From positions 1 to 64,000 of the IMG/VR virus record IMGVR_UViG_3300032246_002821: 64,000 bases of DNA. The stretch is one strand, 5' to 3'. A program made the translations under genes and the position numbers. The notes under the pieces are model-generated. The model did no database searches. It had not been told where the DNA came from and saw nothing but the letters and a program-made list of their open reading frames with translations. This stretch comes from a virus. Shown piece after piece: positions 23,322 through 54,683 of this stretch (position 1 is the stretch's first letter; every line of letters begins with the position of its first letter).

Positions 23322-23971
23322 CCGAAATATTGCGGATGGATCATTTGGATAGAGAGCATTTCTGTACCATTCAAATAGGTTTTGATGTGGGGTATGATAT
23401 TTTCCGCTAGGATCCTATGACCATTGGGAGTGAAATGATTGGATCTGCTGTCCTGCATATTTTTACCCCAATCGGGCCAGTCTGCTTTACTGCAACTTGA
23501 CAGTCCCATATCGCTTACCAACCACAATCCATAAGTTTTGTTCACATAAGTGCTATTGAATGCAGGCATATTGATCAATTTGATCTGTCTTTCCCTGCAC
23601 TTGTTTTGTATGTCATCTATCAATAATTTGTACATATTGAAACTGAAAATTTCATCATACAAATGTTCATAATACATCTTGGCCGCTGATATGATTTCTG
23701 ATCTAACAGTATTGTCGAAAGTGAAATTTTCTATATGTGGATTTATAGCAACTGTGGGATGATACAGTCTGCTATGTTCCGTATGAACTATCAGTACCAC
23801 ATCAGGTTCTCTATTCAAAACACGATGGAAGTTTTCCCATATTTTGTACTGGCTCTGTCCGCTGAAACCCTGATGGCTTATAAGATGCAATCCACATTCT
23901 GTTACCATGGTTTCCAGATATGTGTTTTTATAGTCCCGTACGAAGCTGTCCCCCATTATTGCTATGAACAT
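23318..23971 (-). CDS. SGNH/GDSL-hydrolase-like protein
   Basis: 217 residues. The N-terminal MGDSF block carries the candidate nucleophile Ser; the C-terminal SNHFTPNGHRILAENI resembles the block V His region of SGNH hydrolases. Related to the two proteins at 25425-26728, which share the GDSF start and general length. Such proteins act as carbohydrate O-acyl transferases or esterases. TGATG overlap with the carbamoyltransferase. Confidence 0.7.
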   Translation of the reverse strand: MFIAIMGDSFVRDYKNTYLETMVTECGLHLISHQGFSGQSQYKIWENFHRVLNREPDVVLIVHTEHSRLYHPTVAINPHIENFTFDNTVRSEIISAAKMYYEHLYDEIFSFNMYKLLIDDIQNKCRERQIKLINMPAFNSTYVNKTYGLWLVSDMGLSSCSKADWPDWGKNMQDSRSNHFTPNGHRILAENIIPHIKTYLNGTEMLSIQMIHPQYFG

Positions 23972-25428
23972 CAGAAAACCCTTATGTCGTGTAATTCACT
24001 GAACCGCCTGGCATCAGACATATCATTAACTAGTGGTTCGCCTCGTATATTTAGACTTGTGTTTAGCAACATAGCACAACCAGTACGTGCTTGCCAGGCT
24101 TCCAGTATAGCCCGTATGATACCTGGATTGTTATGATGCACAGTTTGCACTCTGCTGGTGCCATCCACGTGACATATAGCCGGATATGTGTCAGGCTCCA
24201 GGCATTTTACCGTATATTGCATGAAATCATATCTGTCATCCGTGACATCGAAATGGAACCTGGCGTGTTCGGCCAGCACCACTGGTGCGAATGGTCTGAA
24301 CTTCTGTCTTTGTTTGATGGTATTGACACGATCTTTCACATCTGGCCCACGTGGGTCGGCCAGTATACTGCGATTTCCCAGAGCACGGGGGCCGAACTCA
24401 GCCCTGCCATTTGCTATGCCTATCACTTGCCCTGATTCCAGAGCATCCACAACTGTTGTGATATCAACATTACCACAGATATCATGTCCCAGATAGACGT
24501 GATCTAATCTTTGCTGACGCCTGGTCTTGTATAAGACCGCGCCCATACTGAGCCCAGCATCGCCTGGATTGGCTGGCACATACATCCGTTTATACACGCC
24601 TGATTTTAGGATTTCACTATTAGCTACGCAATTAAGAGCACACCCCCCACTGATGATCAGGTTGTCACTGGGCAGCAGCTTACGTGCATAGGATACCAGA
24701 CCTTGCATATATTCCTGGAATATCTGTTGAGCACTGGCGGCTATGTCTTCCGCTCGCCAGCCCCGGTGCTCTAGCAAGGATTTAATGCCACGATGGATGT
24801 TATATCGCATAGGGCAGCGAGGCGGTGTCCAATCGCTGAACAACATCTGTTTCAACTCCACCGCGTGTACAGGCTCGCCATAGGCAGCCATACCCATAGT
24901 GATGTATTCTTCTTCGTTGGGTTTGAGTCCAATGGCTTGTGTTATGGCGGTGTAAAATAATCCCATGCTATCTGGATAACTCTGATGCCACTTGCAGTAT
25001 AACTCAGCGCCACATCCGTACCAAATGCTGGTAGTTTTCCATTCTCCTATGGCATCTACCACGATTATTGCAGCGTTAGTGTAGCCGCTGGTATAATAAC
25101 CCAACGCCGCGTGAGCACCGTGATGCGGCACTGTTTCAAATTTCAAATCGTCCAGACCGAATTGCCTTAGATGTGCGACAGGATCCTGAAACACTGGCCG
25201 TTCGCCGCTGTATAGTCTGCGTAGTGCTTTAGTCCAGGGATTCTCGAACCACAATATTTTATCAGGTTTGCCATATCTGGCCATATCTGCCAGCATATGT
25301 TCGTTGAGCAAATTGTCACTTTTTTTCCTGCTGTATCTTTCGCTATGAGCAGCAAATAAAACTTCTTGTTCAGTGGCCAAACACACACTTGCGTCGTGAT
25401 TTAACGCATTTATACCCAGGTATTTCAT
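23971..25428 (-). CDS. Carbamoyltransferase, NodU/CmcH family
   Basis: 485 residues. N-terminal Kae1-like domain: LGINALNHDASVCL, HHGAHAALGYYTSGY (metal-binding His residues), IISGGCALNCVANS. C-terminal domain: FGPRALGNRSILADPR, RPFAPVVL, HVDGTSRVQTV, LLNTSLNIRGEPLV. The family transfers a carbamoyl group from carbamoyl phosphate via carbamoyl-AMP to a hydroxyl, as on Nod factors or antibiotic sugars. All blocks are present. Embedded between SGNH-like genes downstream of a fibre gene, so a glycan on fibre or host surface is a likely target. Confidence 0.93.
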   Translation of the reverse strand: MKYLGINALNHDASVCLATEQEVLFAAHSERYSRKKSDNLLNEHMLADMARYGKPDKILWFENPWTKALRRLYSGERPVFQDPVAHLRQFGLDDLKFETVPHHGAHAALGYYTSGYTNAAIIVVDAIGEWKTTSIWYGCGAELYCKWHQSYPDSMGLFYTAITQAIGLKPNEEEYITMGMAAYGEPVHAVELKQMLFSDWTPPRCPMRYNIHRGIKSLLEHRGWRAEDIAASAQQIFQEYMQGLVSYARKLLPSDNLIISGGCALNCVANSEILKSGVYKRMYVPANPGDAGLSMGAVLYKTRRQQRLDHVYLGHDICGNVDITTVVDALESGQVIGIANGRAEFGPRALGNRSILADPRGPDVKDRVNTIKQRQKFRPFAPVVLAEHARFHFDVTDDRYDFMQYTVKCLEPDTYPAICHVDGTSRVQTVHHNNPGIIRAILEAWQARTGCAMLLNTSLNIRGEPLVNDMSDARRFSELHDIRVF

Positions 25429-43431: not shown

Positions 43432-43896
43432 TTATATGCGCCTATAAAAATAATGGCCGCCTATCTGCGCCGTTTTTACCAGTCTGGGATCGCGAAACGG
43501 ACGATTGTTGAAAAATTCAGCACTGTTGCTGACATCAGTATGAAAGCCCAGCATAACTAGTTCTGCACTGGCCAAACTGCGCTCATATTGCTCTTGGCGT
43601 GTGATTATCAGGGTTTTATCGCAGGCGAATGTGAATTGACAACGGCCCTGCCAGCGTTGGTACACAACATTGCAGATGGTATTGCCATAACGACCGCTGT
43701 TAACCCTGTTCATAATAACTTTGCCCACAGCAATGCGGCCAATATCCGATTCATTACCTGCTTCAAAATATATGGCTGTGGCCATACATTGCAGTTGTTT
43801 TGCATCGGGTTTGGGCGCGGTCCAACTAAACCATTCTGCCTGTGCTGTGTTTAAGCCGATGATTAAGGTTATCACAGCAATGTAAAATCTAATCAT
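43432..43896 (-). CDS. Cell-wall hydrolase, SleB family (endolysin)
   Basis: 154 residues; start at ATG after a perfect AAAGGAGG site. N-terminal signal or signal-anchor (FYIAVITLIIGLNTAQA), then a SleB/Hydrolase_2 domain: MATAIYFEAGNESDIGRIAV with the catalytic Glu, VIMNRVNSGRYGNTICNVVY and RCQFTFACD. Likely a muralytic transglycosylase-type endolysin exported by Sec. A longer frame upstream overlaps the tmRNA and is not used. Confidence 0.9.
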   Translation of the reverse strand: MIRFYIAVITLIIGLNTAQAEWFSWTAPKPDAKQLQCMATAIYFEAGNESDIGRIAVGKVIMNRVNSGRYGNTICNVVYQRWQGRCQFTFACDKTLIITRQEQYERSLASAELVMLGFHTDVSNSAEFFNNRPFRDPRLVKTAQIGGHYFYRRI

Positions 43897-44019: not shown

Positions 44020-44404
44020 TGTCACGAGGCTGTCTGATGTAGCCCTACCTGGTAGACCAGGAATTGTTTTAACTGCGTATCAGCCGCTTACGCAAGCTGG
44101 TTGTACTGGTATTTAGTGGCCCGTTCTGTTGCCGGGTGGAGCCATACCCCTGGTGGTTACGCTGCTAGAGCGAACTCCTGAGTAGCAAAGTTATCGTTTG
44201 CATTTGTCATTTTGCTTTCTGTCTCAGCTGGTCTTTATCACACCTGTCGATCCTATTTCGCCCCCATCAAAGATACACTGACTCGAAACAGTGCCGGCCA
44301 GTCACCTATCAGTTAGTGGTGTGCTATCCAGTGTATCTATGGTGGAGGCGCCGGAGTACTGCCCTCCGGGTCCAGTGAGTTTATTCCACTTCGCCTCAAC
44401 GACA
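44020..44404 (-). ncRNA. ssrA: Circularly permuted two-piece tmRNA
   Basis: On the minus strand the acceptor piece comes first (about 44404-44340): it ends CGCCTCC-A-CCA. The coding piece starts at 44265 with GGGGGCGAAATAGGATCGAC, so GGGGGCG pairs with CGCCTCC. Between them the spacer has a perfect ATACACTG/CAGTGTAT hairpin, presumably excised. The tag frame at 44201-44157 is GCA...TAA and encodes ANDNFATQEFALAA. A GCCTC/GAGGC helix plus GAC/GTC can join the two pieces. Permutation and 5' sequence resemble alphaproteobacterial tmRNA. Confidence 0.93.
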
Positions 44405-44415
44405 TAAGCATATTA

Positions 44416-44444
44416 TTTATAGCATTAAATGTGTAGTATGTCAA
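44416..44444 (-). promoter_or_regulatory. Promoter of tmRNA, sigma70-like overlapping a late box
   Basis: TTGACA, 17-nt spacer, TATAAA on the minus strand; the -10 is inside an exact TATAAATA (44414-44421), so both early and late polymerases could use it. Confidence 0.65.
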
Positions 44445-47400
44445 CTATTTCTGGGCGATACATCAAATTGACCGTCGGGCCCTGAACCGCCCCAACCAGT
44501 TGTTTCGTTTCTGTCCATTCCAGTTTTCATTGTTTTGAGTATGGCCTGGAATTGGTTACGTATCTTGTCCAGCAAAGGAGCCAACACCTGGCTTCCCAAC
44601 AATGTGGTGCCCAATGCATCCACATTGGATGGTGTCACTTGGCTGAGCATCTCCAACATACCATATACCATCTGATCTGTCAGGAAGGGATTATCATATT
44701 TGGTTGTACCGATGCTGCCGTATAGGATTTTATTACACAGGCTCAGCATCGTGCCCACGAACATCTCATTATTGGTCAGTAATAACCCTTTTTCGTCTAT
44801 GGTGGCAAACAGGTTCTGGCTACGGTTCAGTCCCACCACATAGCACTTGTTACCGATGACCAGTGTATTACGGCCTACAACTTGGCTCAACACATCCATA
44901 CCTATGGTTTTCTTTACCTGCTCGCTGGTGTTGGCCCATTGTATGTCGTAATATGCTTCGTCGGCCTGTGCAGGCAACATATGAGCAGGATCGTTTCCGC
45001 TGTTGATCAATGCTGTATTTCTCAACTGTATATAGATGTCATCTGGATTTTGTGGTGCAGGAGGATCCAACAACACATCAGGCACTATGGGCATTTCGCC
45101 ATTGTAAACAGTCTGGGCGAAACCATAGGGATCATTGTAATATTTGCTCCTGGGCAGATCGAATCGACCTGTGTCTATACCCAGCTCTGTCAATAATTCT
45201 TTGTTTTTACCCTGACGCATAGCTGCTTTTATGCTGTCTCCCCAGATGTCATCGGTGGCAACTCGTTCGAGGAAATGTCCCATTTCTCCATAACCCATAT
45301 TCATTCCGTGATAGGGCAGCTGGCTTGCGAACACGAATGCGTTGGTGGGGTTCTGATCCAGTCCATCTGTGTTGAAATGATCTATACCGAAAGTCTTGCT
45401 CATATGGTTTTCTTTAAGCAACTGAGCACAACTGGCCAAATGCGCTGCTTCGCTGGCAGCAAGCAGTTTTTTCAATGTGGGATCAGTCGTGTTTTTTATC
45501 ACAGTCAGCTGTGCTTCCACATAAGGGATGAAATCTGTAAGACAAGCGTCCAGACTGGTATAAACTATACCATCATAAGGGGTGGTGCCGAAATCGTGGA
45601 TCACTGGCAGACCAGTTGCACCCAGCGGCACTGCATTGCCATCAGCATCTGTGACATTGCTCAGATATTGAGTGCTGGTGCTGGTATCTCCAGTGATGGG
45701 ATTGGTTATAGTTTTGGTTGGCAGTGTACCTGTCAAACCTCCTGTCAAACTGTTGCTGACATCCGCTGCGTTCACCACTTTTGTCAGTTTATTAGTGGGA
45801 GCACCAGCCCAGGGCACACTCACTTTAGGTGTGATAACGATAGTGTCCACATTAGTGCTGCCAGCTGGAGGTGTGCCTCCACCTGATACACTTGTTCCGT
45901 CAGGAGCAGGTACATTATAGAGACCGTTTATTATGTTGTGCATGATATTCAATCTGCGTTGAAGTTCCTGCCCATCAGTGGTGGCCATCACCGCATCATT
46001 GGCCGCGATGATATGTGGCAGAGTGTCGTTATGCACATAACCAGCACAAGTACCCATGAAATCTGCCATAGTTATTTCGCCTATGGTACCGCCACCGAAA
46101 CCATATGTGCTCTGTATCTCGTCTACGGCAGGCTGATAGTATGGCGTGCTCATCTGGCTCACGTGGTTCAGATCCAGGCCAGGATCCACTTTGCTCAACA
46201 CCATACCCACCTGTTGGAAATTTTCAGCTCTGGTGATGCCCAGGCTCATGAAGTGTTCGCCCAGTTCTTTGAAGTTATTGTGCGGACTGCTCTGGCTCAT
46301 ATTGGGCATCATGGTCTTGTAATCTGTCAGCTGTCCCAGATGTGTAACAGGTGTGCTCACATTGAAATGGCTGCTGACACTAGCCACTGCTGTGGGATCG
46401 CTGATCTGTGTCAGCACATTCTGCACACTCTTGTCGTACCTGGGATCATCCACGCCTGCCAGAGGCACACCAGCTGTGACCAATTTGGTAGTGAGACCTG
46501 TCTTGGTTCCCAGACCAGCATTGAGTATCTGATTGGCCACGTTGCCAGGTTGCATAAGCCTGGTGGGATTACTGGTGCTGAATGTGCCCATATTCAGCAT
46601 ATCAGTGCTGGCGCCAGCAAGATTCCTGGTTAGACTGGTCACTCCATAACTTAGCACATCATTCATATTGCGGAAATTGGCCCCCAACGCACCAGGACCT
46701 TGGGTACCGAATTTTGCCGCACTGGCTTCACTAGCTGCGCCCACCATCTGATTGGCTATGCCGCTATAAGCGTTGGATACGCCCAGATTGTTCATCATTG
46801 CATTGAGGCCGCCGCCCACTGCACCCCCCACCATATTATTGGCCACGTTCTTGATCATACCCTGGAGTCCACCATTGGCCGCGAACTGCTGCATCACGTT
46901 GGGCAGATTCATGGGATTTTGCATTATTGCATTGAGGGGCGCCATCAGTTGTCCCAGTGCTCCATTGATAGCACCATTTGCGATGCCAGCCAGCTGTGGT
47001 GGCAACACTCCTGTGAGGCTGGGTAGTATGCTACCGCCCAGTTGGCTTATCTGTTGCATTATGGGGCCAGTGATGCTGCTCATAGCACTGCCCAATGCTC
47101 CCTGAGCGAATCCACCCAGGCCCTGCCCGCTCATTATGCCGCTGATGCCGCCCTGCAAGGCACCCTTCATCATATCGCCAGCCACACCTGTGATCCCAGC
47201 TGCTCCCAGCGCATTGGTCAACTGGCTGGTCAGTCCATTGGTTGCCATTCCCAGTGCGTTCTGTAATCCAGCTGCGCTCATGAGACTGGCGGGATTCATC
47301 CCGCTGCTGGCACAGCCAGCACCTCCCGCGCCTGGTGCGCCGGGCATACCAGGAGGACCTCCTGCTGCACCAGCAGGTGGTTTGGCATTGGGATCTATGT

Positions 47401-47950
47401 TTTGATCAATGAGGCTGTTTGTACCTGTACCAGCCACTTTAGCACTGTCACCGCCATTGCTGTTTAATTGATCTGCCCAGGTGGTTTTGCTGTTGTTGGT
47501 AAACCCTTGCAAACCACTCACATACTGGGCTAATTCTGCATCACTTGCACCATTTTTCACCAGTTCGCCATATTTTTGCACCGCTTGGCAATTACCACAG
47601 GCGTAACTCATTGCCACACCGATAGCCTGGGCATTGGGACTGGCGTTCTCGATGGCACCACCGCTTGCTTTATAAATGTTCTGATAGTACTGATCGCTGG
47701 CTTGGTATTGCAGTGTAGCCAGTGCTGTAGGTTGATCTATCTTGGTGTCTGGCGTGACAGTGGTCAATCGTCCTGTGTTGGGATCTATATACTGGCTGGT
47801 GCCTCCCACACGCCAGGCGCTGAAACTGCCGTCACGTACATTGGTATCAGCGTGAGCACTCAATAATTGACCACTTCTAGGGATAGCACCTTCGGTACTA
47901 TTGATAACTTTCATAGCCTGTACCAGGCCTGGTCCTTGTAGTGTTGCCAT
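44441..47950 (-). CDS. Large structural protein, probable baseplate/tail protein
   Basis: 1,169 residues. N-terminal about 170 residues resemble the phage-lysozyme-like domain often found in large tail proteins of T4-like marine phages (INSTEGAIPRSGQ; AIGVAMSYACGNCQA). A Gly/Ala/Met-rich low-complexity region (about 190-440) follows and then a long helical region without recognised motifs. Last gene of the operon that begins with the fibre at 58 kb and directly after the 434-residue structural gene. Confidence 0.72.
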   Translation of the reverse strand: MATLQGPGLVQAMKVINSTEGAIPRSGQLLSAHADTNVRDGSFSAWRVGGTSQYIDPNTGRLTTVTPDTKIDQPTALATLQYQASDQYYQNIYKASGGAIENASPNAQAIGVAMSYACGNCQAVQKYGELVKNGASDAELAQYVSGLQGFTNNSKTTWADQLNSNGGDSAKVAGTGTNSLIDQNIDPNAKPPAGAAGGPPGMPGAPGAGGAGCASSGMNPASLMSAAGLQNALGMATNGLTSQLTNALGAAGITGVAGDMMKGALQGGISGIMSGQGLGGFAQGALGSAMSSITGPIMQQISQLGGSILPSLTGVLPPQLAGIANGAINGALGQLMAPLNAIMQNPMNLPNVMQQFAANGGLQGMIKNVANNMVGGAVGGGLNAMMNNLGVSNAYSGIANQMVGAASEASAAKFGTQGPGALGANFRNMNDVLSYGVTSLTRNLAGASTDMLNMGTFSTSNPTRLMQPGNVANQILNAGLGTKTGLTTKLVTAGVPLAGVDDPRYDKSVQNVLTQISDPTAVASVSSHFNVSTPVTHLGQLTDYKTMMPNMSQSSPHNNFKELGEHFMSLGITRAENFQQVGMVLSKVDPGLDLNHVSQMSTPYYQPAVDEIQSTYGFGGGTIGEITMADFMGTCAGYVHNDTLPHIIAANDAVMATTDGQELQRRLNIMHNIINGLYNVPAPDGTSVSGGGTPPAGSTNVDTIVITPKVSVPWAGAPTNKLTKVVNAADVSNSLTGGLTGTLPTKTITNPITGDTSTSTQYLSNVTDADGNAVPLGATGLPVIHDFGTTPYDGIVYTSLDACLTDFIPYVEAQLTVIKNTTDPTLKKLLAASEAAHLASCAQLLKENHMSKTFGIDHFNTDGLDQNPTNAFVFASQLPYHGMNMGYGEMGHFLERVATDDIWGDSIKAAMRQGKNKELLTELGIDTGRFDLPRSKYYNDPYGFAQTVYNGEMPIVPDVLLDPPAPQNPDDIYIQLRNTALINSGNDPAHMLPAQADEAYYDIQWANTSEQVKKTIGMDVLSQVVGRNTLVIGNKCYVVGLNRSQNLFATIDEKGLLLTNNEMFVGTMLSLCNKILYGSIGTTKYDNPFLTDQMVYGMLEMLSQVTPSNVDALGTTLLGSQVLAPLLDKIRNQFQAILKTMKTGMDRNETTGWGGSGPDGQFDVSPRNS

Positions 47951-51912: not shown

Positions 51913-54219
51913 TTAAATGGTGCAGCTTTCACAGTCTGCTTCGTTGACATCTGGTAATTCTACTACATCTGGAACAAACTTGTCAATGTTTATTTCGCCC
52001 TGACCGTCATAGGTGTTGAAGTAGTAAAGGGTCTTTGTGCCGTATTTGTAGCACATGAGCAGATGTTTCAGCATCTCGCTCATTGGTATCTTTTCGTCCG
52101 CATAATGCTGCGGATTATAACTGGTGTTGACACTGATGGCCTGGTCGATGTATTTCTGCAACACAGCACACAGCTTCAGATAACCTTCTGGGCTTTTCTG
52201 ATCCCACAGCAGCTCATACTTGTTTTTCAGCTTTTTAAATTCAGGCACAACCTGACGCAGTGCGCCGTGCTTGCTCTGTTTGATACTGATAAGACTGCGT
52301 GGAGGTTCGATACCATTGGTAGCATTGGCCACCTGTGCTGATGTTTCAGCAGGCATCAGTGCCATCAGTGTGCTGTTGCGGATGCCGGTTTCCTTCAGCT
52401 GTTCACGCAGGCTGTTCCAGTCCATGCGTTCAGTATGAGGCACCAGTTCATCCACTTCTTTCTTGTAAGTGTCGATAGGCAGGATGCCTGTGTGATATTT
52501 GGTCTGGCTGCTGAGTGGTGCTGCTCCCTTCTCACGAGCCAGGTCGGCTGATGCTTTGATCAGATAATAACTCCAGGCTTCGGCATATTCGTCTACCACA
52601 GCCAGTGCCGCTGGATCCGAATACTTGAGATCGTTCTTGGCCAGGAAGTAGGCAAAGTTGATGATGCCGATACCCAGTGGACGACGATTCATTGTGCTGA
52701 TCTCTGCGGCGATAACAGGATACTTCTGGTAGTCCAACAGTTCGTCCAGTCCACGCACAGCCAGGTCACACATCTTGGCGAAGTCGTGTGGTTCTTTCAC
52801 ATTGCCCCAGTTGATTGCTGATAATGTACACAGGCTTATCTCACCTTCAGGGTCGGCACTGTGTTGCAGTGGTTTTGTGGGCAGTGTGATTTCACAGCAC
52901 AGGTTGCTCTGGCGCACAGGGCTGGTGCTTTCCAGGAAACTGCTGTGTGTGTTGGCGTGATCCACATTCATCAGATAGATGCGACCGGTGTTCTTGCGTT
53001 CTTCCATGAACATACTGAACAGGTCCACTGCTTTGAATGTCTTCTTGCGGATCTTGGTGTTCTTTTCTGCTCGCTCATAAAGTTCCTTGAACCGGTCCTG
53101 ATCGTTGAAGAAAGCCTCATACATACCAGGTACTTCGTGTGGACTGAAGCAAGTGATGTCGCCACCTGTGAGTAATCTCTCATACATCAGCTTGTTGAAC
53201 TGCACACCATAATCCATATGGCGGATGCGAGTGTCTTCCGTGCCTTTGTTATTTTTGAGCACCAACAGGTCTTCCACTTCCAGATGCCATATGGGATAAT
53301 ACAATGTGGCAGCACCATTACGCACACCGCCCTGGCTGCAACTACGCACAGCACTCTGCAGGTGTTTCCAGAAAGGAATGACACCAGTGTGGCTGGTATC
53401 GCCATTACGCACGGCTGAACCGATGGCACGGATACGTCCAGCATTGATACCGATGCCAGCTTTCTGGCTCACATATTTGACGATACTGGTGGCTGTGGCA
53501 CTGATGCTGTCCAGGCTGTCGTCTGTCTCGATCAGCACACAACTGCTGAACTGGCGTTGTGGTGTACGGACACCTGCCATGATGGGAGTGGGCAAACTGA
53601 TGTCGTGCTTGCTGATGGCATCATAGTAATCCCGCACATATTTCATACGAGTAGCTTGGGGATAACGACTGAACAGGGTGGCAGCGATCAGCGCATAGGC
53701 CACCTGAGGTGTTTCTTTGATTTCACCAGTGACACGGTTCTGTACCAGGTACTTGCCACGCAGTTGCTCCATGGCCACATAAGTCAGGGTCTGGTCACGG
53801 TCGTGGTCCACGAACTTGTCGATCTGTTCCCATTCCGCTTCGGTATAATCTGTCAGCAGGCTGGGATCATAGAATCCTTCTTTGACATTCTTCTTGATCA
53901 GCGTCAGCAGTGGCCAGGGCTGATAATCATTGTACACTTCCTTACGCAGGTGATAATTGACCAGACGACCTGCCACATACTGATAGTGTGGTGCTACTTC
54001 GCTGATCAGATCTGCCGCCGCTTTGATCAGGGTTTCCTGGATTTCAGTGGTCTTGATGTTGTTGTATAGTTGGATCTGGCTTTTGATTTCCACTTCACTT
54101 GCACTTACGCCTGGCAAATTCTCCGTGGCCCAAAACACCACTCTGTGAAACTTCTCTAGATCTAGTAGTTCTTTTCTTCCGTCACGCTTTGTTACATTGA
54201 TACCGCGGCTGGCAATCAT
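51913..54219 (-). CDS. nrdA: Ribonucleotide reductase class Ia, large subunit
   Basis: 768 residues from the ATG at 54219 (a TTG six codons earlier is possible). N-terminal ATP-cone (VTKRDGRKELLDLEKFHRVV) and catalytic core: FSSCVLIE, RQSNLCCEITLPT (active-site Asn, Cys, Glu) and SLCTLSAINW (second redox Cys). C-terminal CESCTI is the swinging dithiol. Supplies dNTPs. It is unusual that it lies downstream of a tail-fibre gene in one operon. Confidence 0.97.
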   Translation of the reverse strand: MIASRGINVTKRDGRKELLDLEKFHRVVFWATENLPGVSASEVEIKSQIQLYNNIKTTEIQETLIKAAADLISEVAPHYQYVAGRLVNYHLRKEVYNDYQPWPLLTLIKKNVKEGFYDPSLLTDYTEAEWEQIDKFVDHDRDQTLTYVAMEQLRGKYLVQNRVTGEIKETPQVAYALIAATLFSRYPQATRMKYVRDYYDAISKHDISLPTPIMAGVRTPQRQFSSCVLIETDDSLDSISATATSIVKYVSQKAGIGINAGRIRAIGSAVRNGDTSHTGVIPFWKHLQSAVRSCSQGGVRNGAATLYYPIWHLEVEDLLVLKNNKGTEDTRIRHMDYGVQFNKLMYERLLTGGDITCFSPHEVPGMYEAFFNDQDRFKELYERAEKNTKIRKKTFKAVDLFSMFMEERKNTGRIYLMNVDHANTHSSFLESTSPVRQSNLCCEITLPTKPLQHSADPEGEISLCTLSAINWGNVKEPHDFAKMCDLAVRGLDELLDYQKYPVIAAEISTMNRRPLGIGIINFAYFLAKNDLKYSDPAALAVVDEYAEAWSYYLIKASADLAREKGAAPLSSQTKYHTGILPIDTYKKEVDELVPHTERMDWNSLREQLKETGIRNSTLMALMPAETSAQVANATNGIEPPRSLISIKQSKHGALRQVVPEFKKLKNKYELLWDQKSPEGYLKLCAVLQKYIDQAISVNTSYNPQHYADEKIPMSEMLKHLLMCYKYGTKTLYYFNTYDGQGEINIDKFVPDVVELPDVNEADCESCTI

Positions 54220-54233
54220 TATCTGGTCCTTTT

Positions 54234-54683
54234 TCAAACTGGTAGGTGGTCAATAGTTACTGTGTTTATTAGATCGACTTCAGGGCCGATAGTGGAGATA
54301 TTTACCACGGCACCCAATTGGTAATTAAGCATATATTTCCCACTCTCACAGTTGACTAAATTAAGGTATTGGTGATTTTTTCTATCTTTGTAGCATTGTA
54401 ACACCATCGTGTCACGATGTCTATAATCGCTGTAGTATAAGGTATAGAACATTCCCAGCGCACGAGCGCAATCGCAATAATGACCTGCACCTATCAGTGA
54501 CCAGGCATCTGGCCAGTCCGTGGGATCATCCAAATTGAGATAACGATGTTCCAGTGGGCACTGGGCCCAATCGGCGGCAACCTGACTGACATAATCAGGT
54601 TGCAGATTTTTTCTATAATTTCGCCAATTAAGGATTCGATCTTCAGTACGTCCGTTAAACCATTTCCAAGTATCTGATTGCAT
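54234..54683 (-). CDS. Conserved hypothetical protein, 149 aa
   Basis: Start at MQSDTWKWFNG, overlapping the fibre gene by 29 nt; a GTG 10 codons earlier is possible. Contains TDWPDAWSLIGAGHYCDCAR and ALGMFYTLYYSDYRHRDTM. Similar proteins occur in T4-like cyanophages, function unknown. Confidence 0.7.
   Translation of the reverse strand: MQSDTWKWFNGRTEDRILNWRNYRKNLQPDYVSQVAADWAQCPLEHRYLNLDDPTDWPDAWSLIGAGHYCDCARALGMFYTLYYSDYRHRDTMVLQCYKDRKNHQYLNLVNCESGKYMLNYQLGAVVNISTIGPEVDLINTVTIDHLPV

Follow-up and report, generated by a model that had tools for sequence, protein, structure and literature searches.

The closest described counterparts of the gene reported here are the alphaproteobacterial two-piece tmRNAs (RF01849; Caulobacter ssrA). 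With them it shares a permuted order, an acceptor stem carrying G3-U70, a GGAUCGAC D-loop, a GGCRGUA T-loop, an encoded CCA, an AND...LAA tag and a 3′ pseudoknot; it differs in being phage-encoded, in lacking pseudoknot 1 and in having a six-pair T-stem. Permuted tmRNAs encoded by phages are not a new type and have already been published. ARAGORN has suggested 53 two-piece phage tmRNAs, and Melnitz has been described (PMC9004378). The tmRNAs of these marine phages (Melnitz, Mosig and others) are, like ours, phage-encoded, permuted and of the alpha type, but the phages differ. A glutamine riboswitch is located at ssrA in Melnitz, whereas no riboswitch reached threshold here, and ssrA is common but not defining in the Melnitz group, whereas every testable locus of the lineage studied here carries a tmRNA. 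Among jumbo phages, to which our virus belongs along with Sinorhizobium phages AP-J-162 and Phosso, tmRNA and Clp proteins have been listed for AP-J-162 (PMC11242549). tmRNAs are also reported in Bradyrhizobium elkanii phages (PMC12656738), and an ARAGORN-based survey of huge phages found both tmRNA and SmpB among their translation genes (PMC7162821); we find the former but not the latter.

The window analysed is a 64,000-nt stretch, the first 64 kb of the 182,953-bp viral record IMGVR_UViG_3300032246_002821, itself a fragment. On this window ARAGORN reported a tRNA-Thr alone. Because it misses both the window copy and those of several relatives at this locus, surveys that depend on it undercount phage tmRNAs; in IMG/VR, at least 119 contigs contain the alpha core GGGGGCGAAATAGGATCGAC. 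The new element is the apparent status of the tmRNA as a conserved gene under a promoter of its own in a lineage of uncultured jumbo phages, of which we found no statement in the open-access literature, as far as our incomplete coverage of it extends.

Architecture of the tmRNA gene

A preliminary description of positions 44020–44404 had proposed a phage-encoded circularly permuted tmRNA, to be abandoned if covariance scores fell below threshold. Both relevant Rfam models score it above their cut-offs on the minus strand: alpha_tmRNA (RF01849) at 44448–44115 (135.5 bits against 50, E 7.9e-37) and tmRNA_permuted (RF04321) at 44404–44157 (95.2 bits against 47, E 3.4e-17). The gene is shifted relative to the interval first described, with a promoter upstream at 44444–44416 and 44020–44114 lying downstream of the modelled RNA. 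In the 5′-to-3′ direction the minus strand presents promoter, acceptor piece, 74-nt spacer, coding piece, resume codon, tag, TAA and 3′ pseudoknot. Both pieces, the excised spacer between them, the tag (ANDNFATQEFALAA) and its stop codon are intact.

The acceptor piece (44340–44404, 5′ end approximate), delimited by the RF04321 and RF01849 alignments and by acceptor parsing, comprises a linking-helix strand, the T-arm, the 3′ acceptor strand CGCCTCC (44350–44344) and an encoded ACCA (44343–44340). The coding piece (44115–44265, end approximate, the RF01849 match reaching 44115) runs from acceptor-stem G1 through the 3′ pseudoknot and opens with GGGGGCG (44265–44259). As had been proposed, the acceptor piece precedes the coding piece, the two strands pair, and CCA is encoded; the stem has seven pairs and includes G3-U70. 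The T-arm, CCGGAG-GGCAGTA-CTCCGG (44351–44369, minus strand), has six pairs rather than five, a feature that the window copy has in common with one relative (L246). Its loop does lack TTCRA, as noted earlier, but this is unremarkable because the Rfam alpha consensus is itself GGCgGUA at that position, close to the GGCAGTA of the window.

The 74-nt spacer between the pieces (44266–44339, minus strand) would be removed in maturation. It contains the hairpin that had been called perfect, which is in fact near-perfect, with 11 standard pairs including G-T (44338–44328 with 44281–44271) that prolong the acceptor helix. A spacer stem of 9–13 pairs follows CCA at the same place in 17 of the 18 lineage tmRNAs defined below, the remaining one (L236) having six pairs.

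Toward the 3′ end lies a pseudoknot of the PK2 type (44117–44153, minus strand), in which S1 joins 44153–44148 to 44136–44132 and S2 joins TGGCTC (44144–44139) to GGGCCA (44122–44117). An S2 stem of at least six pairs is present in 82 of 84 distinct viral tmRNAs, as against 19% of shuffles. Pseudoknot 1, by contrast, is absent from the window copy, its region missing from the RF01849 alignment, and the distance from G1 to the resume codon is 64 nt compared with 80–88 nt in most of the viral permuted tmRNAs examined. Copies with 46–68 nt over this span also occur on other viral contigs. An upstream pseudoknot 1 is typical of two-piece tmRNAs without defining them (PMC3985003), and all four pseudoknots of the E. 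coli RNA can be replaced with activity retained (PMC2481249). We do not claim that its loss is virus-specific, the excess of long contigs among viral tmRNAs without pseudoknot 1 being weak (Mann-Whitney p 0.02). The folding energy of the precursor is unexceptional (z −1.8); what supports the structure is the covariation described below.

The tag frame, GCA...GCG TAA (44157–44201, minus strand), begins with the resume codon GCA at 44201 and encodes ANDNFATQEFALAA followed by TAA, which bears out the LAA-type degron ending (ALAA) first noticed. In E. coli the frame is set by A86, four bases ahead of the resume codon (PMC2481249); an A at this −4 position is found in the window copy and in 91 of 93 distinct viral tmRNAs.

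Upstream of the gene stands what appears to be a dedicated sigma-70-type promoter, TTGACA-N17-TATAAA (44416–44444, minus strand). The exact sequence occurs once in the 182,953-bp record, where 0.03 occurrences are expected, and just upstream of the tmRNA gene in all 18 lineage members examined. The promoter tool demands T at position 6 of the −10 box and so does not list it. Covariance models, conserved signals and covariation together support the identification as a phage-encoded, permuted, alphaproteobacterial-type two-piece tmRNA, for which processing into two pieces is predicted.

A fixed locus in a jumbo-phage lineage

The gene lies between a structural gene of 1169 aa without a PHROGs match (44441–47950, minus strand), which we took as the marker of the locus, and, downstream, a PHROGs endolysin-type cell-wall hydrolase (43432–43896, minus strand; likely start ATG 43896 with an AGGAGGT ribosome-binding site, in an ORF listed to 44025). 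Two terminase relatives in IMG/VR, G020 and G012, have a permuted tmRNA adjoining homologues of these neighbours. As a single query the structural protein yielded no confirmed relative in IMG/VR and no match in phage records. A scan with an alignment of three of its homologues, blind to the tmRNA, identified 22 viral loci. A tmRNA is present in 18 of them, sixteen detected by covariance search (one cut by a contig end) in addition to G012 and G020. The other four (L223, L224, L227, L243) are uninformative because their contigs end inside the structural gene or less than 1 kb from it; all loci whose contig reaches more than 1 kb past that gene carry the tmRNA. Two further loci found through an NrdB-type gene (L246 and L247) likewise carry it, and a cell-wall hydrolase homologue lies downstream in 16 loci. 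Several loci and orthologues are near-duplicates, so that the effective number of independent cases is somewhat smaller than these counts.

For sequence comparison we assembled 18 lineage tmRNAs, namely the window copy, 15 from structural-gene loci, and those of L246 and L247. Acceptor pairs 4–6 show 3, 4 and 3 pair types, respectively, with compensating changes, and T-stem pairs also covary. Pairs 1, 2 and 7 are invariant, and pair 3, the alanine signal G3-U70, is G-U in all 18. Because the acceptor parser accepted only strands that pair, the pairing as such is in part built in; it imposed neither covariation nor G3-U70 nor the promoter.

Distances between tmRNAs track those between the neighbouring proteins (Mantel r 0.66, p 0.0002, n 17). 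One clear exception, L236, pairs a tmRNA nearly identical to that of the window with a diverged structural protein; inheritance is thus not purely vertical, and exchange of tmRNAs between phages is suggested. Six loci (L214, L222, L226, L231, L232, L241) differ in T-loop and D-loop type (TTCGA-like or TGCGAAT with GATT-type D-loops, as opposed to GGCRGTA with GGATCGAC), which suggests either that their tRNA-like part was replaced or that the loops changed jointly.

Integration commonly takes place at tmRNA genes, and among the IMG/VR contigs with tmRNAs many are short and may be host flanks, so that a recently captured host gene or an att remnant, passively carried, might be envisaged. We consider this extremely improbable. 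The gene is complete rather than a fragment, the 182,953-bp record (itself a fragment) gave no tyrosine integrase match, and the fixed locus, shared along with promoter and covariation by diverged phages, already contradicts a relic. Instead, the tmRNA looks like a core gene of this jumbo-phage lineage rather than a recent host capture, and because relatives keep the same gene in the same place under the same promoter, its presence seems to reflect a need of the virus and not an accident.

By terminase, the nearest jumbo phages are PA5oct-like (54% identity), Phosso (51%) and Atu_ph07 (50%), and the tail sheath gives identical nearest neighbours. The record holds 24 tRNA genes. Elsewhere in the window we noted a Nol-like carbamoyltransferase (23971–25428; phrog_1601, E 1e-97) and a ribonucleotide reductase large subunit (51913–54237) whose top phage match, Stenotrophomonas phage DLP_6, is only 62% identical.

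In Sinorhizobium phage Phosso itself (PV764938.1) we found an unannotated permuted tmRNA (L002:3444–4046). It is alpha-type like that of the window but has a 410-nt spacer, a retained pseudoknot 1 region, the tag ANDNVSTKVALAA and different neighbour genes. By eye, a pair of long inverted repeats can be seen in its spacer, each of which pairs with a different acceptor strand. Other viral permuted tmRNAs have unusual tags: 33 residues (AKASTTESAVKVTKARGFRFGGARVAAADAAFA, with an ending other than LAA) in a jumbo-phage relative (L216:1501–1764, on the 354,959-bp contig G024), 29 residues (ANDNALSNVTFVDFSAPVTAVNEDFALAA) on four contigs (L150, L162, L185, L201) and 31 residues (ANDNVAQPKFMKKRNTFARKVGFTKGMALAA) on another (L172). 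In the terminase relative G042, the permuted tmRNA (L212:1501–1771) has a short tag, ANDEVFALAA, and its acceptor and D-loop sequences are different; it was apparently acquired independently, from a different group of hosts.

Tags within the lineage remain in frame despite codon insertions (for example ANDNFVAQDYALAA, ANDNFISSKAYALAA, ANDNAPVEMRLAA and AANDNFAFEHALVA), and in ten lineage loci ARAGORN independently arrives at the same tag readings. Their middles diverge strongly at the same locus; the last residues are mostly kept, with an LAA ending in most. The first 11 residues of the window tag have no exact match in 84,980 species genomes, by a pattern that does match the window, nor in IMG/VR; a looser pattern found none either but, having had no positive control, is given no weight. 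A plasmid collection also gave no match. The earlier suggestion that the tag points to the host accordingly holds only weakly. The alpha-type sequence fits an alphaproteobacterial host, but with the gene mostly inherited within the phage lineage while the tag drifts, the tag does not directly mark the host. An alphaproteobacterium nevertheless is the likely host, given the alpha-type tmRNA and the fact that Phosso and Atu_ph07 infect rhizobia.

Proposed role in ribosome rescue

We propose, with a probability of about 0.8, that the gene is a functional jumbo-phage ssrA, matured and used by host factors and kept for ribosome rescue during infection. The gene architecture, covariation, G3-U70, frame signal, promoter and fixed locus on which this proposal builds are read from the DNA itself; that the RNA is processed and charged, relies on host SmpB, tags proteins and benefits the phage we infer from established tmRNA biology. 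The gene's own sigma-70 promoter would be used by host RNA polymerase. The tRNA-processing enzymes of the host would then cut out the 74-nt spacer, with RNase P acting before G44265 and 3′ trimming at the encoded CCA, and the two pieces would be held together by the acceptor stem and the linking helix. Charging by host AlaRS is expected to proceed via G3-U70. SmpB was detected neither in the 182,953-bp record (a fragment) nor in 32 related records, so host SmpB is presumably used, which together with host EF-Tu would bring the tmRNA to stalled ribosomes. The tmRNA would append A-ANDNFATQEFALAA, and the tagged product would be degraded by ClpXP-type proteases. For the phage, the benefit would be continued ribosome rescue at a time when mRNAs are being truncated by the infection and host genes turned off.

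It is also conceivable, though very unlikely in our judgement, that the RNA is a decoy that competes with or inhibits host trans-translation. A phage precedent exists in the tag-less tmRNA-like RNA of mycobacteriophage DS6A (cited in PMC11915505). That RNA has no tag frame; the window gene has an intact one, and essentially all relatives retain tag frame, resume signal, stop codon and 3′ pseudoknot, unlike the DS6A form.

A working tmRNA whose diverged tag alters the fate of tagged proteins, through adaptor or protease preference or through phage ClpXP, and so redirects proteolysis, strikes us as quite improbable. The divergence of tag middles at one locus, with last residues mostly kept, is in keeping with such retasking. 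ClpP is found in 8 of the 32 related records; ClpX and ClpP are both encoded by the tmRNA-bearing Phosso, G042 and G024 (the contig of the 33-residue tag), and ClpP by G058, so that some relatives may perform the degradation step with a protease of their own. The ALAA ending is an ordinary degron, however, and neither ClpP nor AAA_2 has a match in the 182,953-bp window record (a fragment) or in the available sequence of several tmRNA-bearing relatives; moreover, some phages that lack a permuted tmRNA have ClpXP too (Atu_ph07, PA5oct, G045).

Beyond ribosome rescue with host factors, which we favor, a bolder version would have the phage lineage keep its own tag-and-degrade pathway, built from a tmRNA with a dedicated early promoter, a fast-changing tag and phage-encoded ClpXP. 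We regard this as unlikely. Were it true, the phage would control which truncated proteins are removed, and might evade control by the host, or anti-phage RNases that put the host tmRNA out of action.

Phage tmRNAs are usually noted singly and taken for cargo that the phage has picked up. In the present case, blind testing through the neighbouring gene shows that a tmRNA is kept at one place, with promoter and alanine signal constant, across diverged jumbo phages. This raises two testable questions: whether a lytic phage needs its own ribosome rescue, and whether a diverging phage tag does something that the host tag does not.
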